The notes beneath the pieces were generated by a model, which saw nothing but the letters and a program-made list of their open reading frames with translations, did not search any database and had not been told where the DNA came from. Position numbers and translations under genes: made by a program. DNA of 64,000 bases from Vampirovibrionales bacterium (lineage in GTDB: Bacteria > Cyanobacteriota > Vampirovibrionia > Vampirovibrionales > Vampirovibrionaceae), in NCBI GenBank assembly GCA_029262635.1, contig JAJCZA010000005.1, positions 372,001-436,000 on the forward strand. Direction: 5' to 3'. Shown piece by piece: positions 27,574 through 57,430 of this stretch (position 1 is its first letter; each line of letters opens with the position of its first letter).

Positions 27574-27614
27574 TTGTGTGACTGTAAAAGGATGTGGAGG
27601 CTGACAAAGCCGAT

Positions 27615-29021
27615 ATGAATATCATTCAAAATATTTGTAGTGAGCTTTTAAGTGACAAGCCCTACAGCGCCAGTAGGAACTTTATCATTTCGGGAGTTTT
27701 CTGGTTGTTGATTGGAACCAGTTTAGGGCTATTGGCGGCGGCACTGATGACTTGGCCGGATATTATTGTGAATGTCCCTCAAATGTCTTTTGGTCGCGTG
27801 CGGCCTGCCCATATTAATGTGGTGGCTATCGGCTGGTTGAGTATGGGGTATTTGGGCGCTTATTTTTATATCTTACCGGTCTTGGTTGGTCGAAAAGGGG
27901 TTTGGAATGAACGTTTGGCTAACTTAACGTGTTTGGTGTTTAACTTGCTGGTGTTTACGGGCGTTCTCTCTATTCTTAATGGCTATACAGAGGCTCGTGA
28001 GTATGCGGAATTGAATGGGATTTTTGATTATATTGTCTTGGTTGGTTTGTTTTTGTCGGGGTTAATTGGTTTTAAGACGGTACTGACGGGCCCTGAAAAG
28101 AAATGGTATGTGTCTATTTGGTATATTCTGGGGTCTCTGTTCTGGTTTCCGATTGTGTATGTTATTGGTAACCGGGCGTTCGTTGCGTTTGAGGGTTTGA
28201 ATGATGCGATCGCAGGTTGGTTTTATGGGCATAACATCTTGGGAATGTGGTTCACGGTTGGTGGGATTGGTATTTTGTATTACCTTCTGCCTCGGTTTAC
28301 GGGCAATCCGCTTTATAGCCATACGTTGTCCATGATTGGCTTTTGGACGATTGGGATGTTCTATGCGCCGACGGGAACCCACCATATCCTTCAGTCGCCG
28401 GTTCCGGAATGGTTGAAGGCGATTGCGGTTATTTCCAGTGTATTTCTGTTGGTCCCTGTGTTAACGGTTTTGACTAACTTTTTTATGACGATGAAGGGCA
28501 AATGGAGCTTGGCTGCCGAGCATATTCCTCTTCGCTTTGTTATTGTGGCCAGTATTGGTTATTTGTTAACCTGTATGCAAGGGCCGTTTCAGGCAACGCG
28601 AGCCATTAACTGGTATATCCATTTCACCAATTGGGTTGTTGGGCATGCGCATATGGCCCTTTTGGCGACCTTTACGTTTATCGTGTTTGCGGCCATTTAT
28701 TACATTATCCCTAAAGTGACCGGGCGGAAGATTTACAGCAAAAAAATGGCCGTCTGGCATTTCTGGCTTAGTTTGTATGGTGTGGCGATTATGATGATTA
28801 TCTTGACCTGTGCAGGCCTGGTTCAGGCGGCAGGTTGGCATTTCGCAATTCCGGTGGATCAATGGTCAGTCGAAATGTATCCTTACATGTTTATCCGTTT
28901 TCTTTCGGGTGTCATGATTGTATTGGGTCAATTAATTTTTATCTTTAATATTTATAAAACGGTGTTCAGTAAGGAGGCGGAGCCCGCTCCAAATTCTCCC
29001 ACCGGTATTGCTTTTGTGTAA
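27615..29021 (+). CDS. ccoN: cbb3-type cytochrome c oxidase subunit I
   Basis: CcoN is the catalytic, membrane-embedded subunit that reduces oxygen at a heme b3/CuB centre. About 12 membrane helices are visible in some 468 residues. The ligand His are present: RPAHINVVAIGW (low-spin heme), GWFYGHN and GTHHILQSPVPEWL (CuB), and VVGHAHMALL (hemes). GTG 27594 is an alternative start seven codons upstream; ATG 27615 gives MNIIQNICSELL. GGAGG lies 14 nt before that ATG. It is the first gene of the respiratory locus that runs to 36735. Confidence 0.93.
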   Translation: MNIIQNICSELLSDKPYSASRNFIISGVFWLLIGTSLGLLAAALMTWPDIIVNVPQMSFGRVRPAHINVVAIGWLSMGYLGAYFYILPVLVGRKGVWNERLANLTCLVFNLLVFTGVLSILNGYTEAREYAELNGIFDYIVLVGLFLSGLIGFKTVLTGPEKKWYVSIWYILGSLFWFPIVYVIGNRAFVAFEGLNDAIAGWFYGHNILGMWFTVGGIGILYYLLPRFTGNPLYSHTLSMIGFWTIGMFYAPTGTHHILQSPVPEWLKAIAVISSVFLLVPVLTVLTNFFMTMKGKWSLAAEHIPLRFVIVASIGYLLTCMQGPFQATRAINWYIHFTNWVVGHAHMALLATFTFIVFAAIYYIIPKVTGRKIYSKKMAVWHFWLSLYGVAIMMIILTCAGLVQAAGWHFAIPVDQWSVEMYPYMFIRFLSGVMIVLGQLIFIFNIYKTVFSKEAEPAPNSPTGIAFV

Positions 29022-29061: not shown

Positions 29062-30042
29062 ATGAAATCCAATGTTAATTATCTGGTCGCAGCCGTTTTT
29101 GTTGCTCTGATCTTTTTTACCATTATTTATGTAACGGCAATTTTGCCGGCAACCACGTTTACGCCAAACAAGTCAGATGTTGCTTGGGAATATTCCAGTA
29201 GTGAGAAGCGGGGGCGGGATGTATATCGCCGAGAAGGTTGTTTCTATTGCCACACTCAGTTTGTCCGCTATCAGGATCGAGAAATGGGTGAGATGGTTAA
29301 AGCGGGTGACTACGTGTTTGAAACCCCCCATTTGCTCGGAACGGAAAGAACCGGCCCGGATCTCTCTAATATTGGCGGTAAATACCCAGACGCTTGGCAT
29401 TGGGCCCATCACACCAACCCCCGTGCGGTTAAGCCGGGATCCATTATGCCATCGTTTAGCTACTTGAGTAATCAGGATATGACGGATTTGGTTGCTTATC
29501 TTCAGACCATTGGCCAAAAGCGGGTTCAACCTCGTTGGATTGTGGCGCCCCAAGAGTTTCGGGATAAGTTCCATGGGGTTGCAGAAAAGACGGATGTGAA
29601 TGCATCATCGTTTGCCAATGCGGGTCGAGGTATTTATATGCAGAACTGTGCCCAGTGCCATGGGGTGACGGGCAAGGGCAATGGCTCGGTCAGTATGACG
29701 ATGCAGAAGAAGCCTGCGAATTTCACACGACCTTTTTATGCTGGGTATGATGACGCGACTTGGTACTGGCGAATCTCAGAAGGGGTCCCGGGGACCCGGA
29801 TGCCTCGTTGGGCAAAAACCTTGAGTGATGAGGACATGGCTTATCTCGTCGCCTTCTTGAAAACGTTGCCTAAGCCGCCTTCGGCGAAAGCAGGAGACAT
29901 TTCGGTTACAGACTACGCGGCTTTGGACCAGCCGGAAGAAATGAACCAGAACTTCTGGGAAATAGAAGCTCAGAAACATGGTTCGGGTGAAAGTGATCCA
30001 TTTACCGCTTATTCTGAAGAGACAAAAGGAGCGCATGAATGA
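29062..30042 (+). CDS. ccoO: CcoO fused to a second cytochrome c domain
   Basis: The 326-residue protein has an N-terminal membrane anchor (residues 7-30), a CcoO-type monoheme domain with GRDVYRREGCFYCHTQFVRY (residues 51-71), and a second c-type domain with CAQCHGVTGKGNG near residue 198. In usual cbb3 oxidases the second kind of domain belongs to a separate diheme CcoP. Here one fused CcoO-c subunit may replace CcoO plus part of CcoP, passing electrons to CcoN from the periplasmic side. The C-terminus is acidic. Its stop overlaps the next small gene (ATGA). Confidence 0.88.
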   Translation: MKSNVNYLVAAVFVALIFFTIIYVTAILPATTFTPNKSDVAWEYSSSEKRGRDVYRREGCFYCHTQFVRYQDREMGEMVKAGDYVFETPHLLGTERTGPDLSNIGGKYPDAWHWAHHTNPRAVKPGSIMPSFSYLSNQDMTDLVAYLQTIGQKRVQPRWIVAPQEFRDKFHGVAEKTDVNASSFANAGRGIYMQNCAQCHGVTGKGNGSVSMTMQKKPANFTRPFYAGYDDATWYWRISEGVPGTRMPRWAKTLSDEDMAYLVAFLKTLPKPPSAKAGDISVTDYAALDQPEEMNQNFWEIEAQKHGSGESDPFTAYSEETKGAHE

Positions 30043-30218: not shown

Positions 30219-30398
30219 ATGGTTGAAGAATCCACAACGACACGGGCACAGCAGGAGGACGCTTCGGAGGTTCCTCAGGAACGTCCTTACGCGGAGTTTG
30301 AAGTCGGTGAACATCAGGTTCCTTGGTTTCTCTGGCTGTTTTTTGTTTTGTTAATTTGTTGGGCGTCTGTTTCCTGGATGCCTATGTTTGGTTATTAA
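30219..30398 (+). CDS. Small single-helix membrane protein of the oxidase locus
   Basis: The 59-residue product has a hydrophilic N-terminus (PYAEFEVGEHQVPW) and one membrane helix (FLWLFFVLLICWASVSW) near the C-terminus. It lies 6 nt after the CcoS-like gene in the same operon. The position and the topology suggest an accessory subunit of the cbb3 oxidase, comparable to CcoQ/CcoP anchors, but no family is recognised. Confidence 0.65.
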   Translation: MVEESTTTRAQQEDASEVPQERPYAEFEVGEHQVPWFLWLFFVLLICWASVSWMPMFGY

Positions 30399-30441: not shown

Positions 30442-31584
30442 ATGAACGCATCGGGTCATCTACAACAATCCCATTCATTGTCTAGAATGTTAACGCTAGG
30501 CGGCTGCCTGCTTTTGCTTGTGGTCTTAATGGCTACGACAGGGTGCAGTGGACAGGCAAACTTAACGCCTGAATCAGGTCTGGGTTCAGTGCCGGTGCTG
30601 GACGAGCAAGCGCACGGGCTTAATTTTGACTACCCTTCCAAACCACCGTCTTTAAAGCAGGGTAAAGAAGTCTTCTCTAAGAATTGTGCCACATGCCATT
30701 CAGGCAACTATTTTAAGCAGCGGAAGGTTCAGAATAACCTGTTGTATTCGACCCCGATTGATTTGTATGTCATGTTAAATACAGGAAAGCCCCCGGTTTT
30801 GACAGCGGAAGCTAAAGAATCAGGCATTCGTCGGCAGATTGTGTTTTCGGGCGAAAAGGCTCATCCAAACTATCGAAATGAGCTAAATCGAGATGAAATT
30901 TGGGCTTCGTTATTTTATGCGCGGTATTTGGCGGGCGCCAATGACATTGGAACGAAACAGTCTGGCGCAGCGACAGCGGATGCGGTGGCGTCTATTTATG
31001 GTGGAAACTGTGCCGTTTGTCATGGAACGAATGGAGAAGCGGACGGCTTTTTGCACACAGGGCATTCAACCAGTCATGAGTTAGCCAATTCGCCGGTTCA
31101 TGGAGGGGTTCTTATCCCGGCTCCGGCTCGGTTCTCTCAGTATGATCGGATGTTAAATCGAACCGATGCCCAGCTTTTCAAATATATTTCCGAAGGCATT
31201 TATCCGTCGGCCATGCCGGCCTGGCTGGGTAATGTGGATAAAGACAAAGGGTTTAAGTTTGATGAGACGCTGATTTGGGCGCTGGTTAAGCATGTTCGAA
31301 CCTTGGCGATGGACAAGGGAGAGATGAAGGCGTTGAGAGGTGGTTATCACCCGAAAGGCCTGGACTCAACGACCGCAGATCAACCGCCCTTGAATCTGCA
31401 GATTCCGCCGGTTATGCCTTATAATCCAGCCTCTTACACGGGTGGAAAAGAGGTTAAGTCTATTTCCGAGTTTCGTGATATTGAGGTGACGGGTTCAAAA
31501 ATGCCTTTATTAAAGAAAGCCCCTGTCGCCTTGCAGACCCCGTCGCCGAAAACGGAGACGATGGTTGAGGAGGCAGGCGAATGA
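30442..31584 (+). CDS. Diheme cytochrome c lipoprotein
   Basis: The 380-residue protein begins with a lipoprotein signal (LLLLVVLMATTGC, lipidation at the Cys). Two c-type heme sites follow: CATCHSGN and CAVCHGTNGEADG, each in a class-I cytochrome c fold. It lies between the cbb3 genes and the Rieske gene and overlaps the Rieske start by 4 nt. A periplasmic electron shuttle from the Rieske/cytochrome b complex to the oxidase is the natural role. The last 70 residues are Pro-rich and unstructured. Confidence 0.88.
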   Translation: MNASGHLQQSHSLSRMLTLGGCLLLLVVLMATTGCSGQANLTPESGLGSVPVLDEQAHGLNFDYPSKPPSLKQGKEVFSKNCATCHSGNYFKQRKVQNNLLYSTPIDLYVMLNTGKPPVLTAEAKESGIRRQIVFSGEKAHPNYRNELNRDEIWASLFYARYLAGANDIGTKQSGAATADAVASIYGGNCAVCHGTNGEADGFLHTGHSTSHELANSPVHGGVLIPAPARFSQYDRMLNRTDAQLFKYISEGIYPSAMPAWLGNVDKDKGFKFDETLIWALVKHVRTLAMDKGEMKALRGGYHPKGLDSTTADQPPLNLQIPPVMPYNPASYTGGKEVKSISEFRDIEVTGSKMPLLKKAPVALQTPSPKTETMVEEAGE

Positions 31585-32240
31585 ACCGACGATTCTTTTT
31601 AAAGTTAATCCTGAGCGTTCCTGTGTTGGGAGCTTTGGCTTTGTTTATCTCTCCTTTTGTTCGTTTTCTACGACCGACCGTTGGACCGATTACACAAACG
31701 GGTTTGAAGACGGGGAAAGGGCTTCAGGATTTCGAAACTTGGAACGGCAAAGGCGGTTTATTTACACCGCCTGATATGCCGGAACGAGAGTCTGATGTTA
31801 GTTTTGATTTGTCAGAATTCCCTTCACCATGGTCGTTTAAGACGTTTACGTTCGGGCAAAAAAGTCGGGAATATAGCTTTAAGCAGTTCCAGTCGATCCG
31901 CATCCCTGGCTTTGTCGTTCGTTTGCCCGGTACGGATGAAGGGGGCATGCCGAAGTTTATTGCTGTCAGTCGAATTTGCCCTCATATGGGATGCGTTTTT
32001 AACTTTATTGATAAAGAAAAAGCGGTTGAATATAACTATCATCAGGCAGAAAACAACCTGTTTGCCTGCCCCTGTCACTTAAGTGTGTTTGACCCCTTGA
32101 GAGATCAGAACGTGGATGGGGAGCGGAAACTGGGTAAAGTGGTTAGTGGGCCGGCGCCGCGGCCCCCTCGGAGTTTTGAGAAGACCATTGAAAATGGCAA
32201 ATTAATTATCACGGCCGTTGAAGCTGGAGGAATTAGCTAG
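31581..32240 (+). CDS. Rieske iron-sulfur protein of a cytochrome bc-type complex
   Basis: The 219-residue protein has a twin-arginine-type N-terminus (NRRFFLKLILSVPVLGALALF) that serves as membrane anchor. The [2Fe-2S] ligands lie in CPHMGCVF and CPCHLSVFDP, each with the Cys and His required. The spacing and the His-Leu-Ser box fit menaquinol-type (QcrA) Rieske proteins. It accepts electrons from quinol at the Qo site of the cytochrome b encoded 3 nt downstream and passes them to cytochrome c. Confidence 0.93.
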   Translation: MNRRFFLKLILSVPVLGALALFISPFVRFLRPTVGPITQTGLKTGKGLQDFETWNGKGGLFTPPDMPERESDVSFDLSEFPSPWSFKTFTFGQKSREYSFKQFQSIRIPGFVVRLPGTDEGGMPKFIAVSRICPHMGCVFNFIDKEKAVEYNYHQAENNLFACPCHLSVFDPLRDQNVDGERKLGKVVSGPAPRPPRSFEKTIENGKLIITAVEAGGIS

Positions 32241-32242
32241 CG

Positions 32243-33793
32243 ATGGAGCAAGCCATTAACTTGGGTAAAAACGCATTCGCCACCGTGTGGAACTTTGTGG
32301 TGGACCGATGGAAAAAGGGCGATGTGTTCGATGAGACAAAGGCTGATTTGATTAAGGAATCACCGTGGTACCAATTGGGCGGTATTTATTATGTGTCTTG
32401 GATGGTGGTGCTGTTTACCGGAGTGCTTTTGATTGCTGTTTATTTGCCAACGACAGCATTGGCTTACAACTCCGTTGATTTGCTGTCAGAAAATATTTTG
32501 GGCTCTATCCTCCGGGGTATGCATAAGTATGCCGGAGATGCCATGATTATTGCGGCGACCCTTCGGGTCTACCGGATGTGGTTTAATGCCGAGTATAAAA
32601 ATAAGGGTGAATTTGCTTTTCTGTTATCCATTCTGATTTTGGTTATTGCCATGTATTCTGGTTTGAGTGGTTATTTGTTGATCTGGAACCAGCGAGCGTT
32701 TTGGGCGACCAAAGTCTTTGCCACTTTCCCCACCTATTTGGATATGGTGCCAAAAGCCTGGTACTGGCCGTGGGAGTCGGGGTTGGATGGTTTGATCGTT
32801 AATAAAAACACTTGGTTCCTTCCGAACCTGATTGGTATGGGAACAAAAATTGTGGGCGATTGGACTCACCAGGGAATGACCACCTCACAGATCTTGTTGG
32901 GAGGCAGTTCGATTGGGCAGGCGACTTTAACTCGATTCTTTTCTCTGCATTTTGCCTTGTCTTTAGTGATGCTGGTTGCTACGGAGCTGTATTTCTATAA
33001 AAATCGACTGAAACGAATCAACTTGGGAAAAGGCGGTGTCTGGCTTATTTTAGCTATGATTCTGCTTTCAGCCATTGTGTTTCCCGCAGAAAGTGGCTCG
33101 CGTTCCAATCCAGAAGTGACTCCCTTGCCAATTCTTTCGGACTGGTATTTCTTGGCGATGTACCAGATGTTAAAATATATGGATCCCTATTGGGCAACCA
33201 TTTGGACACTCGGTGTCCCGTTCTTAACCATTGGGTTAACCTTCTTGGATGTTGGCCCTGAGCGCGATCCTTGGAAGCGGCCAATTTTCACCTGTATTGG
33301 GATTATGGGCGCTGTTCACTTTCTTGCCTTCTCCATGTTGATTATTGCCAACCAGGCTAACATTGATCAGGATCCGCCTTATTGGTATGGCAGTATGTTT
33401 TTAACGTTAACCATTGGTATGTTCTGGCACTGGGCTCAGTACAAACAGAAAAACGTGTTGATGAGTTATATGGTAATGACGTTTGTTATTGCGGCTTTCT
33501 ATCTGTTCTTCTGGCACTGGCAGGCAGGCCCCTGGCTGTCTGTCTGGTATAACACCGTTGTGCTGGGTAATGCAGCGTTTACGGTACCCGACGCTCAGGG
33601 GTTATATTCTGGTTTGACCGTTCTGACCAATTACCACGGTATTGAGGCCAACTATAATGAGATCCGCCCGGTGGAAGGGTTTAACTGGACGAACCTTTAC
33701 TGGAATTTTATTTGGCTGGGTTATGCTGTTGTTCAAGGCATGATTGCTTTTTTCTTGATTCTGCAACATGATAAAAAAGAGGGGGCGGTCTGA
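32243..33793 (+). CDS. Cytochrome b subunit lacking the two heme bH ligands
   Basis: The 516-residue protein joins the b6-like four-helix N-terminal part to a subunit-IV-like C-terminal part with extra helices. In helix B, His94 (RGMHKYAGDA) is present but the position 14 residues later is Arg108. In helix D, His236 (FFSLHFALS) is present but the position 14 later is Tyr250 and 15 later is Phe. Normal cytochrome b has His at all four. The remaining pair correspond to the bL (p-side) heme ligands; the bH pair is missing. The Qo motif PEWY reads SDWY (299-302). It directly follows the Rieske gene. Confidence 0.88.
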   Translation: MEQAINLGKNAFATVWNFVVDRWKKGDVFDETKADLIKESPWYQLGGIYYVSWMVVLFTGVLLIAVYLPTTALAYNSVDLLSENILGSILRGMHKYAGDAMIIAATLRVYRMWFNAEYKNKGEFAFLLSILILVIAMYSGLSGYLLIWNQRAFWATKVFATFPTYLDMVPKAWYWPWESGLDGLIVNKNTWFLPNLIGMGTKIVGDWTHQGMTTSQILLGGSSIGQATLTRFFSLHFALSLVMLVATELYFYKNRLKRINLGKGGVWLILAMILLSAIVFPAESGSRSNPEVTPLPILSDWYFLAMYQMLKYMDPYWATIWTLGVPFLTIGLTFLDVGPERDPWKRPIFTCIGIMGAVHFLAFSMLIIANQANIDQDPPYWYGSMFLTLTIGMFWHWAQYKQKNVLMSYMVMTFVIAAFYLFFWHWQAGPWLSVWYNTVVLGNAAFTVPDAQGLYSGLTVLTNYHGIEANYNEIRPVEGFNWTNLYWNFIWLGYAVVQGMIAFFLILQHDKKEGAV

Positions 33794-34116
33794 TGAATGT
33801 GGAAAAAACGACCCCGACGGTCGGCTTGCACTTTTTGATTTGGTGGACATTGTTCGCTGGAACGACTTATGCATTCTCTCTGCTACTACAAGCCTTTAAA
33901 ACTTATACCTTGACCCCTGACTGGAGTCACGGTTTTGCTTTGGTGGGTTCGTTTGCCTTGGTTCTGGTGACGCTGGCAGGCTTGGTTTACGACAGTTATG
34001 CGAAGGAAAAAGTCAAAGGGAATATTGTAAAGCCTTTTACGCCTTTTGAATGGCTTTTTTCAATTCAATATAAAACATTAGACAAAGGAGTGGATCCTCA
34101 TGCCTCAGTCCTTTAA
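33793..34116 (+). CDS. Small membrane protein of the respiratory locus
   Basis: The 107-residue product has two or three hydrophobic helices (LHFLIWWTLFAGTTYAFSLLLQ, GFALVGSFALVLVTLAGLVY) and no cofactor motif. Its ATG overlaps the cytochrome b stop (TGATG), and its end overlaps the next gene. A structural subunit of the bc-type complex is the likeliest role. No family recognised. Confidence 0.7.
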   Translation: MNVEKTTPTVGLHFLIWWTLFAGTTYAFSLLLQAFKTYTLTPDWSHGFALVGSFALVLVTLAGLVYDSYAKEKVKGNIVKPFTPFEWLFSIQYKTLDKGVDPHASVL

Positions 34117-34426
34117 AAACCTTCTGGCAATAGTTTTTCTGGTGGCCTCACTGGGTATTGGAATCCCCATGGTGTTGCAAGGGGATTCTAACGTGGATTT
34201 TAATTTAGGTGATACTGCCAGTGCCGAGAAAATGGCCGTGATTTACGAGATTCCTTCCACAAAAATTCAGGAGATGAGTAATATTCGTCATATGGTTGAC
34301 GACGGTTTAAAACCCTACTTTTTAGGCATGGGCTTAATTTTTCTGCTGGTTTCCATTGCGTTTATCTTGATGGATGGTGAGGAAAAGCTGGTGTCTTTAA
34401 AAAGCGGTGAACAGGAGAAAGGCTGA
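34100..34426 (+). CDS. Small two-helix membrane protein of the respiratory locus
   Basis: The 108-residue product has an N-terminal helix (NLLAIVFLVASLGIGIPMVLQG) and a C-terminal helix (YFLGMGLIFLLVSIAFILM) flanking a soluble loop of about 50 residues. The loop, GDTASAEKMAVIYEIPSTKIQEM, has no Cys or His pairs. AAAGGAG precedes the start, which overlaps the previous gene by 17 nt. Unknown family; coupled position implies a complex subunit. Confidence 0.7.
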   Translation: MPQSFKNLLAIVFLVASLGIGIPMVLQGDSNVDFNLGDTASAEKMAVIYEIPSTKIQEMSNIRHMVDDGLKPYFLGMGLIFLLVSIAFILMDGEEKLVSLKSGEQEKG

Positions 34427-34430
34427 TCCG

Positions 34431-35585
34431 ATGTATATCGAACCGATTCAAAAAAATATTGTATTGCCACTGGAGAAAGGGCTGAATGCCCTTTTTACTC
34501 AGCGGTATAATCCTTTCTACTACCATGGAGCCCTACCCAACCTGTTTCTCTGGGTGTTGTTTTTAACAGGGCTCTTGTTGTTGGTTTATTATCAGCCTAC
34601 ATTGGCCACGGCCTATCCGTCCATGAAGTTTATTACCTATGAAGCGCCTTTTGGGAATGCTATGCGTTCGCTTCACCGGTATGCGGCAGATGGGATGATG
34701 ATTTTTGTGTTGATTCATCTCTGCCGGGTCTGGTTCACGGATCGTTTTCGTGAATACCGAATTATTCCTTGGCTTTCCGGAATTGTCTTGTTGATTGCTC
34801 TTTTCGTTGTAGGTTTAACCGGGTATATGCTGATTTGGGATCAGGATGCCGTGGCGCTGACGAACATGACTCTTTCTGGTATTCAATCCTTGCCGTTTGT
34901 AGGGCCTGCGATGGCTAGTTTTCTGATGGGTACGTGGATCAGTGGGGAGTCGATTATTACCAACTATACGGTGACTAGTATTTTGGTTTTCCATTTAGGC
35001 TTGCCATTATTGATGATGTTTCTTTTGTGGTGGCACTATCTACGGATTACCCGACCGGTCACCGATCCACCGCTGGCTCTTATGTTTATGTTGTTAGGAG
35101 GCCTCTTCCTGACAGCGGGCCTTTCTCCAGTAATTCTTGGTGATCAGGCCCCGTCGGATTTGAATGTGGTGAGCGGAAAACTGGATTTTGATCTTCTGTT
35201 TACCTTCCCACAATATTTGGTAACAGCCTTAGGTTGGGACGTGGCAGTTGCCTGGTTGTTTGTTCTGGGTATTCCGGTCTTGCTGTTGGCGTTGCCTTAC
35301 CTTCAGAAAAAGGCTATGCGAGGTCAATATGCCCATGTGGTGTTTGAGAACTGTACAGGGTGTTCTCTTTGCTATAATGATTGTCCCTATGAAGCCATCA
35401 CTATGGTGGCTCGGGAGAAAAATGATGGTACCCGCTTTAAGCGAATGGCAATGGTTGATCCGGGGCGTTGCGCCAATTGCGGTTTATGTGTTGGCGCTTG
35501 TGCCTTCAAGGCCATTGATATTCCACGGTGCGAGTCACCTGATGTCCTTCAAGAAATTGAGCGATCACTGAGCGCAAGTTTATAA
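34431..35585 (+). CDS. Cytochrome b fused to a 2[4Fe-4S] ferredoxin domain
   Basis: From ATG 34431 (after AGGAGAAAGG) the 384-residue protein begins with a cytochrome b6-like region. All four heme ligands are present: His82 and His96 in helix B (SLHRYAADGMMIFVLIHL), His188 and His202 in helix D (VFHLGLPLLMMFLLWWHY). Two to three more helices follow. Residues 300-365 form a bacterial ferredoxin domain with C308-x2-C311-x2-C314-x3-C318 and C347-x2-C350-x2-C353-x3-C357. The ferredoxin would lie in the cytoplasm, near heme bH. With the MvhD-like gene next to it, this looks like an electron gate between the quinone pool and a soluble carrier. Confidence 0.9.
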   Translation: MYIEPIQKNIVLPLEKGLNALFTQRYNPFYYHGALPNLFLWVLFLTGLLLLVYYQPTLATAYPSMKFITYEAPFGNAMRSLHRYAADGMMIFVLIHLCRVWFTDRFREYRIIPWLSGIVLLIALFVVGLTGYMLIWDQDAVALTNMTLSGIQSLPFVGPAMASFLMGTWISGESIITNYTVTSILVFHLGLPLLMMFLLWWHYLRITRPVTDPPLALMFMLLGGLFLTAGLSPVILGDQAPSDLNVVSGKLDFDLLFTFPQYLVTALGWDVAVAWLFVLGIPVLLLALPYLQKKAMRGQYAHVVFENCTGCSLCYNDCPYEAITMVAREKNDGTRFKRMAMVDPGRCANCGLCVGACAFKAIDIPRCESPDVLQEIERSLSASL

Positions 35586-35597
35586 GGGAAATGTAAC

Positions 35598-36026
35598 ATG
35601 GTTGCTAATGAGATTAAATTAATTGGAATCGTTTGTGAGCGTAGCGTGGATTTGACGGATCGCTTGGACGAAAATGGTTGTTTGAAAGAGGATGCTACGG
35701 TTAAGATTATTCAGGTACCCTGTAGCGGCTTAATCCAACCGATTATGATGGAGACCGCTTTAAAAAATGGGGCTCAAGGTTGCTTTGCAACAGGGTGTCG
35801 TATGGGTGACTGTCATTATCGGGATGGGAACCGATTCCTTCAACATCGACTTGAAGGCACTCGTATGCCTAAGCTAAAGCCTTCGGTGGATAAGGAGCGG
35901 GTAGAGGCTTACTGGTTATCAGCCCTTGAATATGAGAAGTTAAAGCATTTAATTGATGAATTTAGAAGCACGACAGATAAATTAGGTCTTCCAGAGAAAA
36001 AAATGGCGAACGCTTCAGCAAGTTAA
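35598..36026 (+). CDS. MvhD/FrhD-like [2Fe-2S] electron-transfer protein
   Basis: The 142-residue protein matches the MvhD family (delta subunit of F420-nonreducing hydrogenase; also fused to HdrA-type proteins). The conserved Cys are in VPCSGLIQPIMM and GAQGCFATGCRMGDCHYRDGN. MvhD carries a [2Fe-2S] cluster and passes electrons between soluble dehydrogenases and heterodisulfide-reductase-like partners. It is 12 nt downstream of the cytochrome b-ferredoxin fusion, so the two probably interact at the cytoplasmic face. No hydrogenase or HdrA gene is in the window. Confidence 0.85.
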   Translation: MVANEIKLIGIVCERSVDLTDRLDENGCLKEDATVKIIQVPCSGLIQPIMMETALKNGAQGCFATGCRMGDCHYRDGNRFLQHRLEGTRMPKLKPSVDKERVEAYWLSALEYEKLKHLIDEFRSTTDKLGLPEKKMANASAS

Positions 36027-39969: not shown

Positions 39970-40695
39970 CTAGTATTGGGTGATTTCCTCCTCCGCTTGA
40001 ACCGGCCGGTGATCGGCTAGATCGAAAGCGTAATAGTTCCCCGGCGTGATGGCCCCTTCGGTAGAATATCCTTTTTGTTCCCAGAATCCAGCTTGAACCT
40101 GATCTTCGCTGATAAAAGCCAGTCTGGAAAGCTGACTCAGCCCTTTGTAATTGAACCGGTCAAAGACCATAAACCAGAGCGGACCACCGTAAAGAGGGGG
40201 AAGAAAGGCTTCCTGTGTTTTATAACAAAGCAAGGCTTGGCTGGCGAGTGCGGTGTTTAGTGGGAGGTATTCGACATGTCCGGATAGATTGGTCTGTTTG
40301 ATCCAGGTGGCTTCGGGCTTGAGCGTTATTTTTTCGAGCAGAGTGGCGAGTGTCACCCCCTGCCAGGACGTTTTGTACGTCCAGCCCTGAGCTGAAACGG
40401 TTCGTCGTTCCTGTGTGACTTGGGGTAAGGCCAATAGCTCGTCCCAACTTAAGGTTAAATAGTTTTTAGGTGGCGGTGGTGGGGTGTTAACGTCAACTTC
40501 ACCTTCTAAAAACGGATCTTTCTCCTTGGGTTGCGGCACTTCAATTTTTCCAGAGAGATGAAGGGTGTAGGGCTTGTTTTCAATGGGCATGATTTGAGTG
40601 TATGTGGCGGGCCATGGCAGAACCGTCGTGTTATCGACGTGGTGTTTTTGAGGGGAAAGCTGGTTGCCGAACCGTTGGTAAAGGGCTTGAAACAC
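39970..40695 (-). CDS. Sulfite-oxidase-fold protein without the molybdenum Cys
   Basis: The 241-residue protein shows the oxidoreductase molybdopterin-binding (SUOX) pattern: LTLSWDELLALPQVTQERRTV, GWTYKTSWQGVTLATLLEKI, GPLWFMVFDRFNYKGLSQLSRLAF and GFWEQKGYS (matching PGFWExxGY). In catalytic members a Cys three residues before the Gly-Trp binds molybdenum. Here that position is Ser101 (SAQGW). No signal peptide is seen. It may be a non-catalytic or differently liganded member. It stands alone on the minus strand. Confidence 0.75.
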   Translation of the reverse strand: MFQALYQRFGNQLSPQKHHVDNTTVLPWPATYTQIMPIENKPYTLHLSGKIEVPQPKEKDPFLEGEVDVNTPPPPPKNYLTLSWDELLALPQVTQERRTVSAQGWTYKTSWQGVTLATLLEKITLKPEATWIKQTNLSGHVEYLPLNTALASQALLCYKTQEAFLPPLYGGPLWFMVFDRFNYKGLSQLSRLAFISEDQVQAGFWEQKGYSTEGAITPGNYYAFDLADHRPVQAEEEITQY

Positions 40696-51897: not shown

Positions 51898-53775
51898 ATG
51901 AATTCAACAGAACCTCCCCCTGAACGGTCTCAAGTGGGGCATCCCAATATCAAAAGTATCGGCTTGGTCGAAAAATCGAGCAATGGGGGAGTGGAGAGTC
52001 ATGCGCTAACGACCGTGTTTAGCGGGATGGCGGTCAACTTTATTTTGGGTACTTTAAAGCTAATGGTTTGGCTTTTGTCGACCCATAAAAGCGCCGCGCT
52101 GTTTAGCGAGGTGCTTCACTCGTTTGGAGACGGCTTGAACAGTATTATTCTGGTGGTGGCCGCAGTCCGAGGTGGGAGGAAGCCGGATCGAACCCATCCG
52201 TTCGGCTATGGCTTGGAATCTAACTTTTGGTCCTTGTTTGCCAGTATTGTTCTGTTTGTTATTGCCAGTTGGGCGTTTATGGAGGGTTTAACTCGTTTTG
52301 GGCATCCTTATGTTCCTGAAGATACGTTCTGGCCGGTGGTCGTTTTGGTGGTTAGTATGGTGTTTGAACTGTTTGCCATCTGGTTGGCCTCCAGAGGCGT
52401 GTTGGCGGAGCTGAATGTAGAAGCCAACTTTTTTACGATGATCCCTAAAGGGTATTATTATGCCCATCAAGCCAAGGTACCGACCACTCGATTTGTCTTT
52501 TTTGAGGATACGCTGGCCTTTTTGGGTGCGTTTGTGGCGTGTCTGACCATTTTTGGGAGTCAGTATTTTGTGGTGTGGGGCTGGCTCCGACCGGAGCAAG
52601 CCCATTATCCAGACGCCATTGCATCGATTCTGATTTCGTTTATGCTGTTGGCCCTTTCGTTGCACCTGTTTTTGGATAACAAAAGTGTGTTGTTGGGCTC
52701 ATCCGCTTCTGCTAAGGAAGAAGAGGCGATTAAAAATACGGTGTTAAGCATTCATGGAGTATCTCAAATCCATGATATTAAAACCATTAATAAGGGTCAC
52801 TCGGGGCTGGTGATTCACCTGACGGTTGAAGTGGAGCCGGAGACACCGGTTAAGGATGTGGATGATCTAACTGATCATATTAAGGCCAAGCTTTCAGAAC
52901 GGTTCCCAAATGTGTTTCAAGAGCAGGTCTTTATTGAAGTGCTGGCGGATGAGACGGAAGTCGAGTGGAGTGCTAAATTTGAAGCTTTGGTAGAAGAAGG
53001 CCGCCGAGAAGGGGTTTTAAAGCCTCGAGATGAGCATCTGTTGCGTCGGGCGTATGATTTTACCGAGCTGGTGGTGCGAGATGTGATGGTGCCCCGGACG
53101 GATGTCGACTTTGTTAACCTAGAGACCTCTTTGGAGGAGCTGGCCGAGCAGATGATTGAAACGGGCCATACCCGCTACCCGGTGTTTCGGGAGAATGTGG
53201 ATGATCTGATGGGGATTGTTCATTCGAGAGATGTGTTTATGCAATGGCGTCTGGGGCGAACGGATATCTCGCTGGCCGAAATTATTCGGGAAATCGATAT
53301 TTATCCAGAAAATAAGCCTGTTAGCGATTTACTGGAAGAATTTAAGCGGAAAAAGCTCCGAATGGCGGCTGTGGCTGATGAACATGGCGGGTTTGCGGGT
53401 ATTGTGACCATTGAAGATTTGATGGAAGAAATCGTGGGCGAGATTTGGGACGAGCATGAAGACGAGGAGCTGATGCTCCAGTTCTTGAGTCCGTACCGTA
53501 TTTTAGTTAGTGGAAAATACAACATTGAGGATATTAATGATCAACTAGATCTGATGATTCCCAATGATGAATTTTTAACCATTGGCGGATTTGTGTTTGG
53601 CCGGTTGGGGCGGGAGCCGATAAAAGAAGATCGGGTGGGTTTTGAAGATTTGACCCTGACCGTGGATCAGGTGGATGGCCCTCGAATTGTGACTCTGATA
53701 ATCGAGTCGCCCCATCCGTTTGAGGATAAGCGAACGGCTCTGGAGCGAGAAAAATCAAGAACCTATGGGGGTTAA
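51898..53775 (+). CDS. CDF cation transporter fused to CBS pair and CorC/HlyC domain
   Basis: The 625-residue protein joins two usually separate modules. Residues 36-265 form a cation diffusion facilitator membrane domain with about six helices, HSFGD (75-79) in the second helix and HPFGYGLESNFW. Residues 275-350 are the CDF cytoplasmic dimerisation domain (SIHGVSQIHDIKTI, HLTVEVEP). Residues 390-515 are a CorC-type CBS pair (VRDVMVPRTDVDFVN, TRYPVFREN, AAVADEHGGFAGIVTIEDLMEEIVGEIWDE). Residues 530-615 are the CorC_HlyC domain. In known proteins this CBS-CorC unit follows a DUF21/CNNM membrane domain. Nucleotide-gated divalent metal export is the likely role. Confidence 0.88.
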   Translation: MNSTEPPPERSQVGHPNIKSIGLVEKSSNGGVESHALTTVFSGMAVNFILGTLKLMVWLLSTHKSAALFSEVLHSFGDGLNSIILVVAAVRGGRKPDRTHPFGYGLESNFWSLFASIVLFVIASWAFMEGLTRFGHPYVPEDTFWPVVVLVVSMVFELFAIWLASRGVLAELNVEANFFTMIPKGYYYAHQAKVPTTRFVFFEDTLAFLGAFVACLTIFGSQYFVVWGWLRPEQAHYPDAIASILISFMLLALSLHLFLDNKSVLLGSSASAKEEEAIKNTVLSIHGVSQIHDIKTINKGHSGLVIHLTVEVEPETPVKDVDDLTDHIKAKLSERFPNVFQEQVFIEVLADETEVEWSAKFEALVEEGRREGVLKPRDEHLLRRAYDFTELVVRDVMVPRTDVDFVNLETSLEELAEQMIETGHTRYPVFRENVDDLMGIVHSRDVFMQWRLGRTDISLAEIIREIDIYPENKPVSDLLEEFKRKKLRMAAVADEHGGFAGIVTIEDLMEEIVGEIWDEHEDEELMLQFLSPYRILVSGKYNIEDINDQLDLMIPNDEFLTIGGFVFGRLGREPIKEDRVGFEDLTLTVDQVDGPRIVTLIIESPHPFEDKRTALEREKSRTYGG

Positions 53776-56136: not shown

Positions 56137-57264
56137 TTATTTGACGGGGTTGTTCAAGGTTACTCCCAGTCCTGAGGGTATGATGGGAGCCGTTTGGTCT
56201 GCCTTTATTATAACCGATTTTTTCCGGTGCTGAAAAGGGGTAATCAATCGTTGGGCGATGTGTTGGGCATGAGGGGAGAGGCTTCCCTCTTCCGTTGGCT
56301 TTAGGTGATGCCAGACAGCTTGTCGGGCGACCGTACCCATACCGACCCCGGCGATAAACTGGTATTGAGGCTGATTCAGGTAGTCGGCTGTTTGGGCGTT
56401 GACGCCGCCGGAGAGGGTGATAAACGGGAATTGGTCTTGGGTTTGAGCTTTAAATGCCATGGCGGCCCGAAGCACCGGGAGTGACGTGTCTGCTTGATCG
56501 GAACCGGACATGGGGGCGCCGTCAATCTGGATAATTAGGGGGAAATCGGGGCTGATCGTTTGGGCAAACGATTGTATTTGGGTTAAAAAGGAAAGCCATT
56601 GGGCGGGTTTCACCGTGTCTGGGCGAAAGCATACGGAAAGTGCTTTTTTCTTAAGAGCCAACTGGAATGGCTTTAGAAAGTCAGAAAGCATATAAGGATC
56701 CGCAAAACGGGTGTGGATTTCAACGGCTCCGACGAGCGGATGAGATAACAAACGGTTCAGTTTTTCTGGATTTTGATGGAAGGGGCGAAGTATCAGTGCT
56801 TGTGTCGGGCAGGTGGTTACGCATCGACCACAACCATAACAAAGGGGCTGGATAATGTTGAGCCGGGCTTTATCGGAAGATAGTTCGATGGCGTTGGTGG
56901 GACAGATGGGGATGCAAGCGTTGCATAAAATGCAATCAGGTTCCTGAAGGTCGATTTTTCGGAAATGAGGATCCGGGTCGAGGGGAATGGACACCATGAT
57001 TAACGGGTGGGGCATCTCGTTGGGGAGTGAGGTTAGTCCGGTTGCGACGGCCTGTAAAACCGCTTCATCGGGGGCAATATCAATAGCATGACACCCGGCT
57101 TTAGCATAGATAGCCGTAAGCTGACTGACTTTGTCTGTTTCGGTAAAACTTCCGCCACAAATGAGTTTGAAAAACCGGTGGTCTTCCAGTGCGGTGCGGG
57201 CGCGGTGTTGGGCGGGTGTCAATGAGTGTTTCATGGATGCGACTAAAGTAGCGTAGTCGGTCAT
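56137..57264 (-). CDS. LdpA-like iron-sulfur protein
   Basis: From ATG 57264 the 375-residue protein begins with a domain matching the cyanobacterial LdpA start (RFFKLICGGSF, YAKAGCHAIDIAPDEAVLQA). Two [4Fe-4S] motifs follow: C111-x2-C114-x2-C117-x3-C121 and C142-x2-C145-x2-C148-x3-C152. The C-terminal region (LPLIIQIDGAPMSGSD, FITLSGGVNAQTADYL) resembles a TIM-barrel-like LdpA C-terminal domain. LdpA links redox state to the circadian clock in Synechococcus. The frame is open up to 57381 but overlaps the tRNA, so the later ATG is used. Confidence 0.75.
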   Translation of the reverse strand: MTDYATLVASMKHSLTPAQHRARTALEDHRFFKLICGGSFTETDKVSQLTAIYAKAGCHAIDIAPDEAVLQAVATGLTSLPNEMPHPLIMVSIPLDPDPHFRKIDLQEPDCILCNACIPICPTNAIELSSDKARLNIIQPLCYGCGRCVTTCPTQALILRPFHQNPEKLNRLLSHPLVGAVEIHTRFADPYMLSDFLKPFQLALKKKALSVCFRPDTVKPAQWLSFLTQIQSFAQTISPDFPLIIQIDGAPMSGSDQADTSLPVLRAAMAFKAQTQDQFPFITLSGGVNAQTADYLNQPQYQFIAGVGMGTVARQAVWHHLKPTEEGSLSPHAQHIAQRLITPFQHRKKSVIIKADQTAPIIPSGLGVTLNNPVK

Positions 57265-57354
57265 GGGATTCAATAGGTTGGTCTGATTCCTTCTTTTTAA
57301 AGGATTGTAATTCCGTTTGATCTTGGGTATAAAAAGGGCAGAGAAATTAAGGAT

Positions 57355-57430
<76 letters not shown>

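Follow-up and report, generated by a model that had tools for sequence, protein, structure and literature searches.

How might a Rieske/cytochrome b complex dispose of its electrons if its two cytochromes b were not alike? This question is raised by a run of genes in a Vampirovibrionales bacterium (GenBank assembly GCA_029262635.1), which lies on a 64,000-nucleotide stretch of contig JAJCZA010000005.1 (positions 372,001 to 436,000) within a genome of 3.0 Mb. The whole stretch is called the window, and coordinates are positions in it unless another locus is named. Beside the genes of a cbb3 (C-type) heme-copper oxidase, the run encodes a Rieske protein, an adjoining cytochrome b (cytochrome b 1), a second cytochrome b fused to a ferredoxin domain (the fusion) and an MvhD-type protein (Table 1). 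We propose, with a probability of about 0.55, that these genes specify a second Rieske/cytochrome b complex, of a specialised kind and coupled to the cbb3 oxidase, which would combine a two-cytochrome-b architecture with electron exchange through an iron-sulfur (Fe-S) arm; the direction of this exchange is excluded from the estimate. An earlier note on this DNA had drawn attention to the fusion and the MvhD-type protein and to a possible bifurcation at the paired cytochromes b. The inequality of the two cytochromes b was absent from that note, and it changes the mechanism more than the presence of MvhD does.

This inequality is apparent from one alignment of 10 canonical cytochromes b, chosen by their PEWY motif, with 21 sequences each of cytochrome b 1 and the fusion, all from the same class, Melainabacteria; the tables of heme ligands and gene order cover the window and 20 of the 57 other genomes of the class that carry the fusion. 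The ligands of hemes bP and bN are taken by us to be the first and second histidines, respectively, of helices B and D, as assigned after the bc1 and b6f complexes. The four ligand columns read HHHH in all canonical sequences (10/10) and in all fusions (21/21). Cytochrome b 1 retains histidine at both bP positions in 21/21 sequences (H94, 32522-32524, and H236, 32948-32950, in the window), and its bN positions are occupied by Arg (18) or Lys (3) and then by Tyr (21), corresponding to R108 (32564-32566) and Y250 (32990-32992). In three operons from Acidobacteriota the bN positions of cytochrome b 1 hold R, R and K, followed by R in all three, and the fusions are again HHHH (3/3), so that both heme-bN ligands are changed in 24/24 cytochrome b 1 sequences examined. 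The Rieske-side cytochrome b is thus predicted to have lost heme bN and to keep bP. The quinol-oxidising (Qo) motif is distributed in the opposite way, being PEWY in 10/10 canonical sequences, the variant SDWY in 21/21 cytochromes b 1 (residues 299-302 in the window), and absent or degenerate (DWFY-like) in the fusions, that of the window having no PEWY-type motif. The two bis-histidine hemes bP and bN are therefore not found in cytochrome b 1 alone but only in the pair taken together. A covalently bound heme cn, held as in cytochrome b6f by the helix-A Cys, is indicated for neither protein: Q44 of cytochrome b 1 aligns with the Cys of b6 that we take to hold heme cn, and the fusion has no Cys before residue 98. 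A canonical cytochrome b of 637 amino acids (aa), fused to cytochrome c domains and carrying PEWY and all four heme histidines, is encoded elsewhere in the same genome (contig C2, L137:8963-10876), and the pair would therefore belong to a second complex and not to the only complex III.

The architecture of the fusion agrees with the earlier description of a cytochrome b with four heme ligands and two C-terminal [4Fe-4S] clusters that is followed by an MvhD-type protein, as confirmed by the histidines, the cysteine motifs and Pfam. The histidines H82, H96, H188 and H202 make up both bis-histidine sites and are invariant in 21/21 class sequences, and eight cysteines (C308/311/314/318 and C347/350/353/357) are placed to bind the clusters, C318 being missing in one of the 21. 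The gene starts with ATG at 34431, ahead of which lies the stretch AGGAGAAAGG, and an in-frame GTG at 34407 offers a longer alternative. A simple hydropathy scan finds five hydrophobic blocks and the AlphaFold model six helices of membrane-crossing length (mean pLDDT 66.9 for the fusion and 67.1 for cytochrome b 1); the model of the fusion matches the cytochrome b of complex III and b6. In the standard topology of cytochrome b, an even number of crossings leaves the C-terminal part on the heme bN side, which is cytoplasmic. Because the model has an even number of crossings, the ferredoxin domain of the fusion should face the cytoplasm, on the same side as heme bN. One residue near the inner end of helix A, H32 (34524-34526), is present in 16/16 aligned fusions and is missing from every canonical cytochrome b, cytochrome b 1 and one-chain sequence of that alignment (the one-chain forms are described below); it may be a ligand of quinone or of an extra inner-side heme in the full complex.

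The MvhD-type protein scores 81.8 bits against PF02662 (cut-off 22.3), and the nearest solved structure is MvhD of the Hdr-Mvh complex (5odc_D, 2.8e-18). Its cysteines C13, C42, C67 and C72 are kept in 29/29 aligned sequences and are enough for one [2Fe-2S] cluster, which is accordingly a prediction from sequence. The ferredoxin and MvhD parts match residues 570-639 and 671-774 of HdrA2 in the same order, and the cysteines of both are retained in two phyla. Considering the setting in an oxidase locus and the Fe-S part that is expected in the cytoplasm, electron exchange between the membrane and a soluble carrier, already suggested from the sequence, is the natural reading of this unit.

The genes concerned are inherited together. 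Among 97 genomes of the class, a close match to the fusion occurs in 58, MvhD (PF02662) in 57 and cytochrome b 1 in 57 (the fusion of G080, which is divided between two contigs, was counted once). MvhD lies directly downstream of the fusion on the same strand in 57/57 cases, with 24-259 bases between the matched parts, and the sole fusion without MvhD is at a contig edge (G064). Cytochrome b 1 is upstream of the fusion on the same strand in 56/57 and on a different contig in the remaining genome; in the only fusion-bearing genome in which it was not found (G061) the contig starts 433 bases before the fusion. Neither cytochrome b 1 nor MvhD was found in any of the 97 genomes that lack the fusion. 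The order ccoN-ccoO-cytochrome c-Rieske-cytochrome b-fusion-MvhD is found in 21/21 class loci, window included, and since it recurs in these and in three loci from Acidobacteriota, it is not due to chance. By the fusion protein, the closest named relatives are a Vampirovibrionales metagenome-assembled genome (71% identity) and Vampirovibrio chlorellavorus (about 62%). The idea of the fusion and MvhD as a unit within the oxidase locus is borne out by the 57/57 adjacencies and by one-chain fusions in five Acidobacteriota genomes. Conservation of MvhD independently of the fusion, which would speak against such a unit, was looked for and not seen in the 97 class relatives. When sampling was widened to 386 genomes from the phylum, 13 matched PF02662, one of them below the cut-off; two of the 13 belong to another family, in which MvhD accompanies HdrA instead. 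In the one of the two whose flanks were inspected (G101, locus L147, outside the class) an HdrA-like gene with a ferredoxin domain lies close to the PF02662 match.

The system is not confined to this class. A pattern-based scan of genome contigs returned 69 loci, of which two were weak ferredoxin-only matches; the other 67 had titles that named this class, were uninformative or were probably wrong ('Chloroflexi' for L091, 'Proteobacteria' for L113). Restriction to one class was dropped as an explanation after 8 of 247 Acidobacteriota genomes gave fusion-like matches better than 1e-60. Three of these (L163-L165) contain the complete operon in conserved order, and in the other five (L166-L170) the cytochrome b, two [4Fe-4S] motifs and MvhD are joined in one chain, which is strong evidence, at the level of sequence, that the cytochrome b-ferredoxin and MvhD work together. 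COX2/COX1 oxidase genes adjoin four of the five one-chain loci; COX1 in both L166 and L167 and COX2 and SCO1 in L166 are backed by Pfam, and the other assignments were made by eye from translations. In L170 the one-chain gene is at the contig edge and no oxidase is seen. The chains at L166:8736-10829 and L170:6917-8827 carry an extra C-terminal hydrophobic stretch and a domain of unrecognised kind, and separate small proteins beside the fusion in L168 and L169 may correspond to this part.

In a tree of 49 sequences after thinning, calculated from 186 columns, the clades of cytochrome b 1 (100), one-chain fusions (100), fusions (77) and canonical cytochromes b (93) are recovered, and the main split, with support of 100, separates canonical cytochromes b and cytochrome b 1 from fusions and one-chain fusions. 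This split rules out that cytochrome b 1 and the fusion are sister duplicates and therefore sets the arm-bearing cytochrome b apart as a separate family that came to be paired with a cytochrome b of canonical type. Because the Acidobacteriota sequences fall among the class sequences on both sides of the tree, a transfer of the operon as a unit between the class and Acidobacteriota is suggested. The finding in Acidobacteriota agrees with a statement in PMC8235220 that melainabacterial complexes III and IV had been placed nearest to non-cyanobacterial taxa by earlier work.

How could such a pair of cytochromes b function? Most likely, cytochrome b 1 and the fusion pair up as a heterodimer that forms the core of the complex. 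Cytochrome b 1 would work with the Rieske protein at the Qo site and hold heme bP only, and the fusion would hold bP and bN without a recognisable Qo motif, with MvhD docked on its two [4Fe-4S] clusters at the cytoplasmic side. Quinol would be oxidised at cytochrome b 1, one electron passing via the Rieske protein, the diheme cytochrome c and the cbb3 oxidase to O2, and the other via bP of cytochrome b 1 and bP of the fusion to bN of the fusion. In dimers of the bc type, the hemes bP (bL) of the two halves lie next to each other. The electron would have to cross to bP of the fusion because cytochrome b 1 has no bN, and alone would leave the Q-cycle unfinished, the second electron stopping at bP. 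At bN of the fusion the Qo-derived electron would meet the Fe-S arm, whose exchange partner would be a soluble carrier of low potential, ferredoxin being the most likely one; path and partner are both deduced from sequence. We give roughly even odds to a natural asymmetric heterodimer of this kind, in which a half with Qo site and bP would face a half with both hemes and the ferredoxin-MvhD arm, and every low-potential electron would cross from bP to bP. Inter-monomer transfer between hemes bL at catalytic rates is reported for engineered dimers in which one half lacks Qo and the other lacks a bH ligand (PMC4330944, in its available text). The present heterodimer would be a wild version of such a cross-inactivated bc1 dimer, joining or splitting quinone-derived and ferredoxin-derived electrons at one inner-side site.

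The soluble partners that had been considered earlier, an HdrA-like protein or an NADH-oxidising enzyme, were searched for, the latter as the NADH-binding module of complex I, and neither was detected. In the window's genome an HdrA query matched nothing but ferredoxin domains, at no more than 28 bits, and it scored 1313 bits in its own genome (G101) and 375 bits in G545, so that HdrA as partner was rejected with a working positive control. Among the 97 class relatives HdrA was matched in none at E 1e-30, a search for which the control was run only later and separately. Complex I is present in the window's genome, and its NADH-binding module was not detected there by a search that was positive in 7/14 control genomes. 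A partial complex I similar to one without NuoEFG is described for most of the Melainabacteria studied (PMC6349859, available text). Given a complex I without detectable NADH-binding module and no detected HdrA, ferredoxin is the likely carrier that exchanges electrons with the Fe-S arm. A single-chain pyruvate:ferredoxin oxidoreductase as ferredoxin source was discarded, being represented by just a 25-bit match below the cut-off, and a Pfam scan found no flavin or NAD(P) domain among the ten operon proteins. In the Hdr-Mvh complex, the C-terminal ferredoxin domain of HdrA is reported to receive electrons from MvhD (PMC9012536, available text). Because MvhD feeds this domain, and the ferredoxin and MvhD parts match HdrA2 in order, MvhD is by analogy probably the docking port for the soluble partner.

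Within this architecture the data do not fix the direction of electron flow, and bifurcation at the paired cytochromes b, as it had been stated, is one option only. An input of cytoplasmic electrons, which would be joined with the Qo electron to reduce an inner-side quinone, has about an even chance and is slightly favoured, because it is downhill and fits the one-chain relatives. An output, in which O2-driven bifurcation would supply the soluble partner, is a tentative second choice, and a side branch or a regulatory function is improbable.

Several observations weigh against the proposed complex. The contact between the two cytochromes b is a postulate; the ferredoxin domain of the fusion is modelled at low confidence (block means of 31-45 pLDDT), too uncertain for distances; the two cytochromes b are by the tree not recent duplicates, so that their partnership would have been recruited; and Lys (3/21) and Tyr at the lost heme positions could in principle be ligands. 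Moreover, no Rieske or cytochrome b 1 match was obtained in the fetched flanks of the five one-chain loci, and the Fe-S-arm module can therefore exist without that partner. This last finding is at the same time what speaks for a different explanation, in which cytochrome b-ferredoxin-MvhD is a separate soluble-carrier:quinone reductase or a transmembrane conduit that is merely co-expressed, cytochrome b 1 forming a homodimer with one b heme in each half; that four of the five loci adjoin a COX1/COX2 oxidase and that the fusion clades with the one-chain forms fit it as well. A Rieske cytochrome b homodimer without bN, however, would leave the second quinol electron with nowhere to go, and the restriction of cytochrome b 1 to fusion-bearing genomes (57/57) is hard to reconcile with mere co-expression, and we regard this explanation as unlikely. 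The SCO1-like and COX2 genes next to the one-chain fusions of Acidobacteriota could also be taken to mean that the module serves oxidase assembly, passing electrons out of the cytoplasm for the reduction of thiols or copper sites. This would leave the linked Rieske protein and cytochrome b 1 with its complementary heme loss (24/24 loci) unexplained, and no oxidase is seen in L170, where the contig, however, breaks off; of all the explanations it is the least probable.

The same architecture as in the favoured heterodimer would be used if the arm were an exit, with ferredoxin or NAD(P) reduced by the low-potential electron of an O2-driven quinol bifurcation after its passage through the fusion. 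Such a role has been proposed for Kuenenia complexes, which have an NAD(P) oxidoreductase subunit and in which the Rieske potentials exceed +300 mV (PMC12954380, available text), and the loss of bN in cytochrome b 1 would drive all Qo-derived low-potential electrons to the arm-bearing half. Yet neither a flavin nor an NAD(P) domain was identified by Pfam in the operon proteins, nor HdrA in the genome, it is demanding by general bioenergetics to drive an electron inward against the membrane potential and to lower its own potential as well, and relatives of the module without Rieske partner adjoin oxidases; as a complete explanation it appears unlikely to us, to the same degree as the separate enzyme. 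An ordinary complex III, running a normal Q-cycle with a structural or regulatory ferredoxin-MvhD part and a second heme in cytochrome b 1 bound by other ligands, corresponds to how genome papers have read these genes, namely as complex III or cytochrome b6f beside a cbb3/C-type oxidase (PMC6349859, PMC4451040, in the text available). It is rendered highly improbable by the alteration of both bN ligand positions in 24/24 sequences and by the retention of the ferredoxin and MvhD cysteines across two phyla.

The remaining genes of the run are compiled in Table 1. Since the genes from 30442 to 36026 overlap or sit within about a dozen bases of one another, they probably form one transcript. The two small open reading frames (ORFs) behind the CcoO gene are likely small oxidase subunits. 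Both cluster boxes of the Rieske protein, CPHMGC and CPCH in the window, are kept across the 21 loci, and the 160-aa membrane protein is weakly recognisable in some close relatives. Other genes of the window include one for a molybdopterin-binding oxidoreductase domain protein near the respiratory operon (39970-40695, minus strand; PF00174, 2.4e-13), one for a single chain joining a cation efflux domain with CBS and CorC_HlyC domains (51898-53775, plus strand), and one for an LdpA-like Fe-S protein (56137-57381, minus strand; PF12617 6e-13, PF25160 3e-10). The name of this last family stands for 'light dependent period A' and is met here in a non-photosynthetic relative of cyanobacteria; the protein is the second-best ferredoxin-domain match to HdrA in the window's genome.

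Table 1. Genes of the run beside the cbb3 oxidase (positions in the window).
Feature	Position	Strand	Evidence and remarks
CcoN-like catalytic subunit, cbb3 (C-type) heme-copper oxidase	27594..29021	+	PF00115 3.2e-80; TIGR00780 3e-76, under equivalog cut-off
CcoO fused to CcoP-like cytochrome c domain	29062..30042	+	PF02433 2e-36, PF00034 3.5e-22
Two small ORFs, 57 and 59 aa	30039-30212, 30219-30398	+	One hydrophobic stretch each by eye
Diheme cytochrome c	30442..31584	+	PF13442 in two stretches, plus PF00034; occupies place of cytochrome c1 or f
Rieske [2Fe-2S] protein	31581..32240	+	PF00355 8.3e-5 (above cut-off); one N-terminal membrane helix
Cytochrome b 1, 516 aa	32243..33793	+	Rieske-side cytochrome b
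Small membrane protein, two predicted helices	33793..34116	+	Recognisable in some relatives
Small membrane protein, two predicted helices	34100..34426	+	Recognisable in close relatives only
Cytochrome b 2 fused to 2x[4Fe-4S] ferredoxin domain (fusion)	34431..35585	+	Cytochrome_B 9.5e-27, Fer4_7 3.8e-10
MvhD/FlpD-type protein	35598..36026	+	PF02662 5.4e-23; no membrane helix
Single-helix ORF, 37 aa	36091..36204	+	No Pfam match; possible small subunit, membership uncertain
Membrane protein, 160 aa, four predicted helices	36253..36735	+	Last of run before rpsP; membership uncertain
Ribosomal protein S16 (rpsP)	36877 (start)	+	Identified by reading of sequence

Compared with known systems, the run shares with bc1 and b6f complexes a Rieske protein with both cluster boxes, a cytochrome b four-helix core with bP ligands, a putative Qo motif of the acidic WY type, a c-type cytochrome and oxidase genes alongside. 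It differs from them in having two dissimilar cytochromes b, one without heme bN and the other without Qo motif, SDWY in place of PEWY, a diheme cytochrome c in place of c1 or f, Gln at the heme-cn Cys position of b6, and a cytoplasmic ferredoxin and MvhD. The fused cytochromes b engineered in Rhodobacter capsulatus and R. sphaeroides, in which only bL-bL transfer connects a Qo half without bH ligand and a bH half without working Qo (PMC4330944, available text), are alike by sequence features; however, the present pair is natural, its halves are distant homologues, and the bN half bears an Fe-S arm. The anammox complexes Kuste4569-4574 and Kustd1480-1485 also join a Rieske/cytochrome b complex to a cytoplasmic redox module, which has been proposed to take up the low-potential electron; they contain an FAD-bearing NAD(P) oxidoreductase and multiheme cytochromes c, and their cytochromes b have been modelled as symmetric dimers (PMC12954380), whereas here the ferredoxin is fused to a second cytochrome b, MvhD is added and no flavin domain was found in the operon. 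With HdrA2 and HdrABC-MvhADG of methanogens the run has in common the succession of ferredoxin domain and MvhD, with recognisable sequence similarity, but the operon contains no HdrA flavin core, HdrB/C or hydrogenase, and here it is a membrane cytochrome b that carries the ferredoxin domain. Closest in organism is the complex III/IV gene group of Melainabacteria, in which petB/petC-like genes lie beside a C-type oxidase and which has been described as a complex III accompanied by a cbb3-type or C-type oxidase; in the text available for these papers, neither the ferredoxin fusion nor MvhD nor the heme loss is brought up (PMC6349859, PMC4451040, PMC4040986). Two candidate precedents were set aside judging by the text available, since PMC6606698 concerns cytochrome bd and PMC3578206 a split b6-type complex in Nitrospina. 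In the accessible parts of the open-access literature we recognised no natural heterodimeric Rieske/cytochrome b complex, no cytochrome b-ferredoxin-MvhD protein and no such heme loss, and a prior mention is possible.

Electron passage between the halves of bc1-type dimers has been argued about for years, with direct kinetic evidence coming from engineered lopsided enzymes (PMC4330944, available text). If the proposed complex is real, a natural half without bN would make transfer between the halves obligatory and directly testable. It would also show a Rieske/cytochrome b complex wired to a soluble low-potential carrier in aerobes. Such wiring is usually discussed for cyclic electron flow around b6f and for anammox bacteria; here its bearers would be relatives of cyanobacteria that do not photosynthesise and whose complex III has until now passed for an ordinary one.

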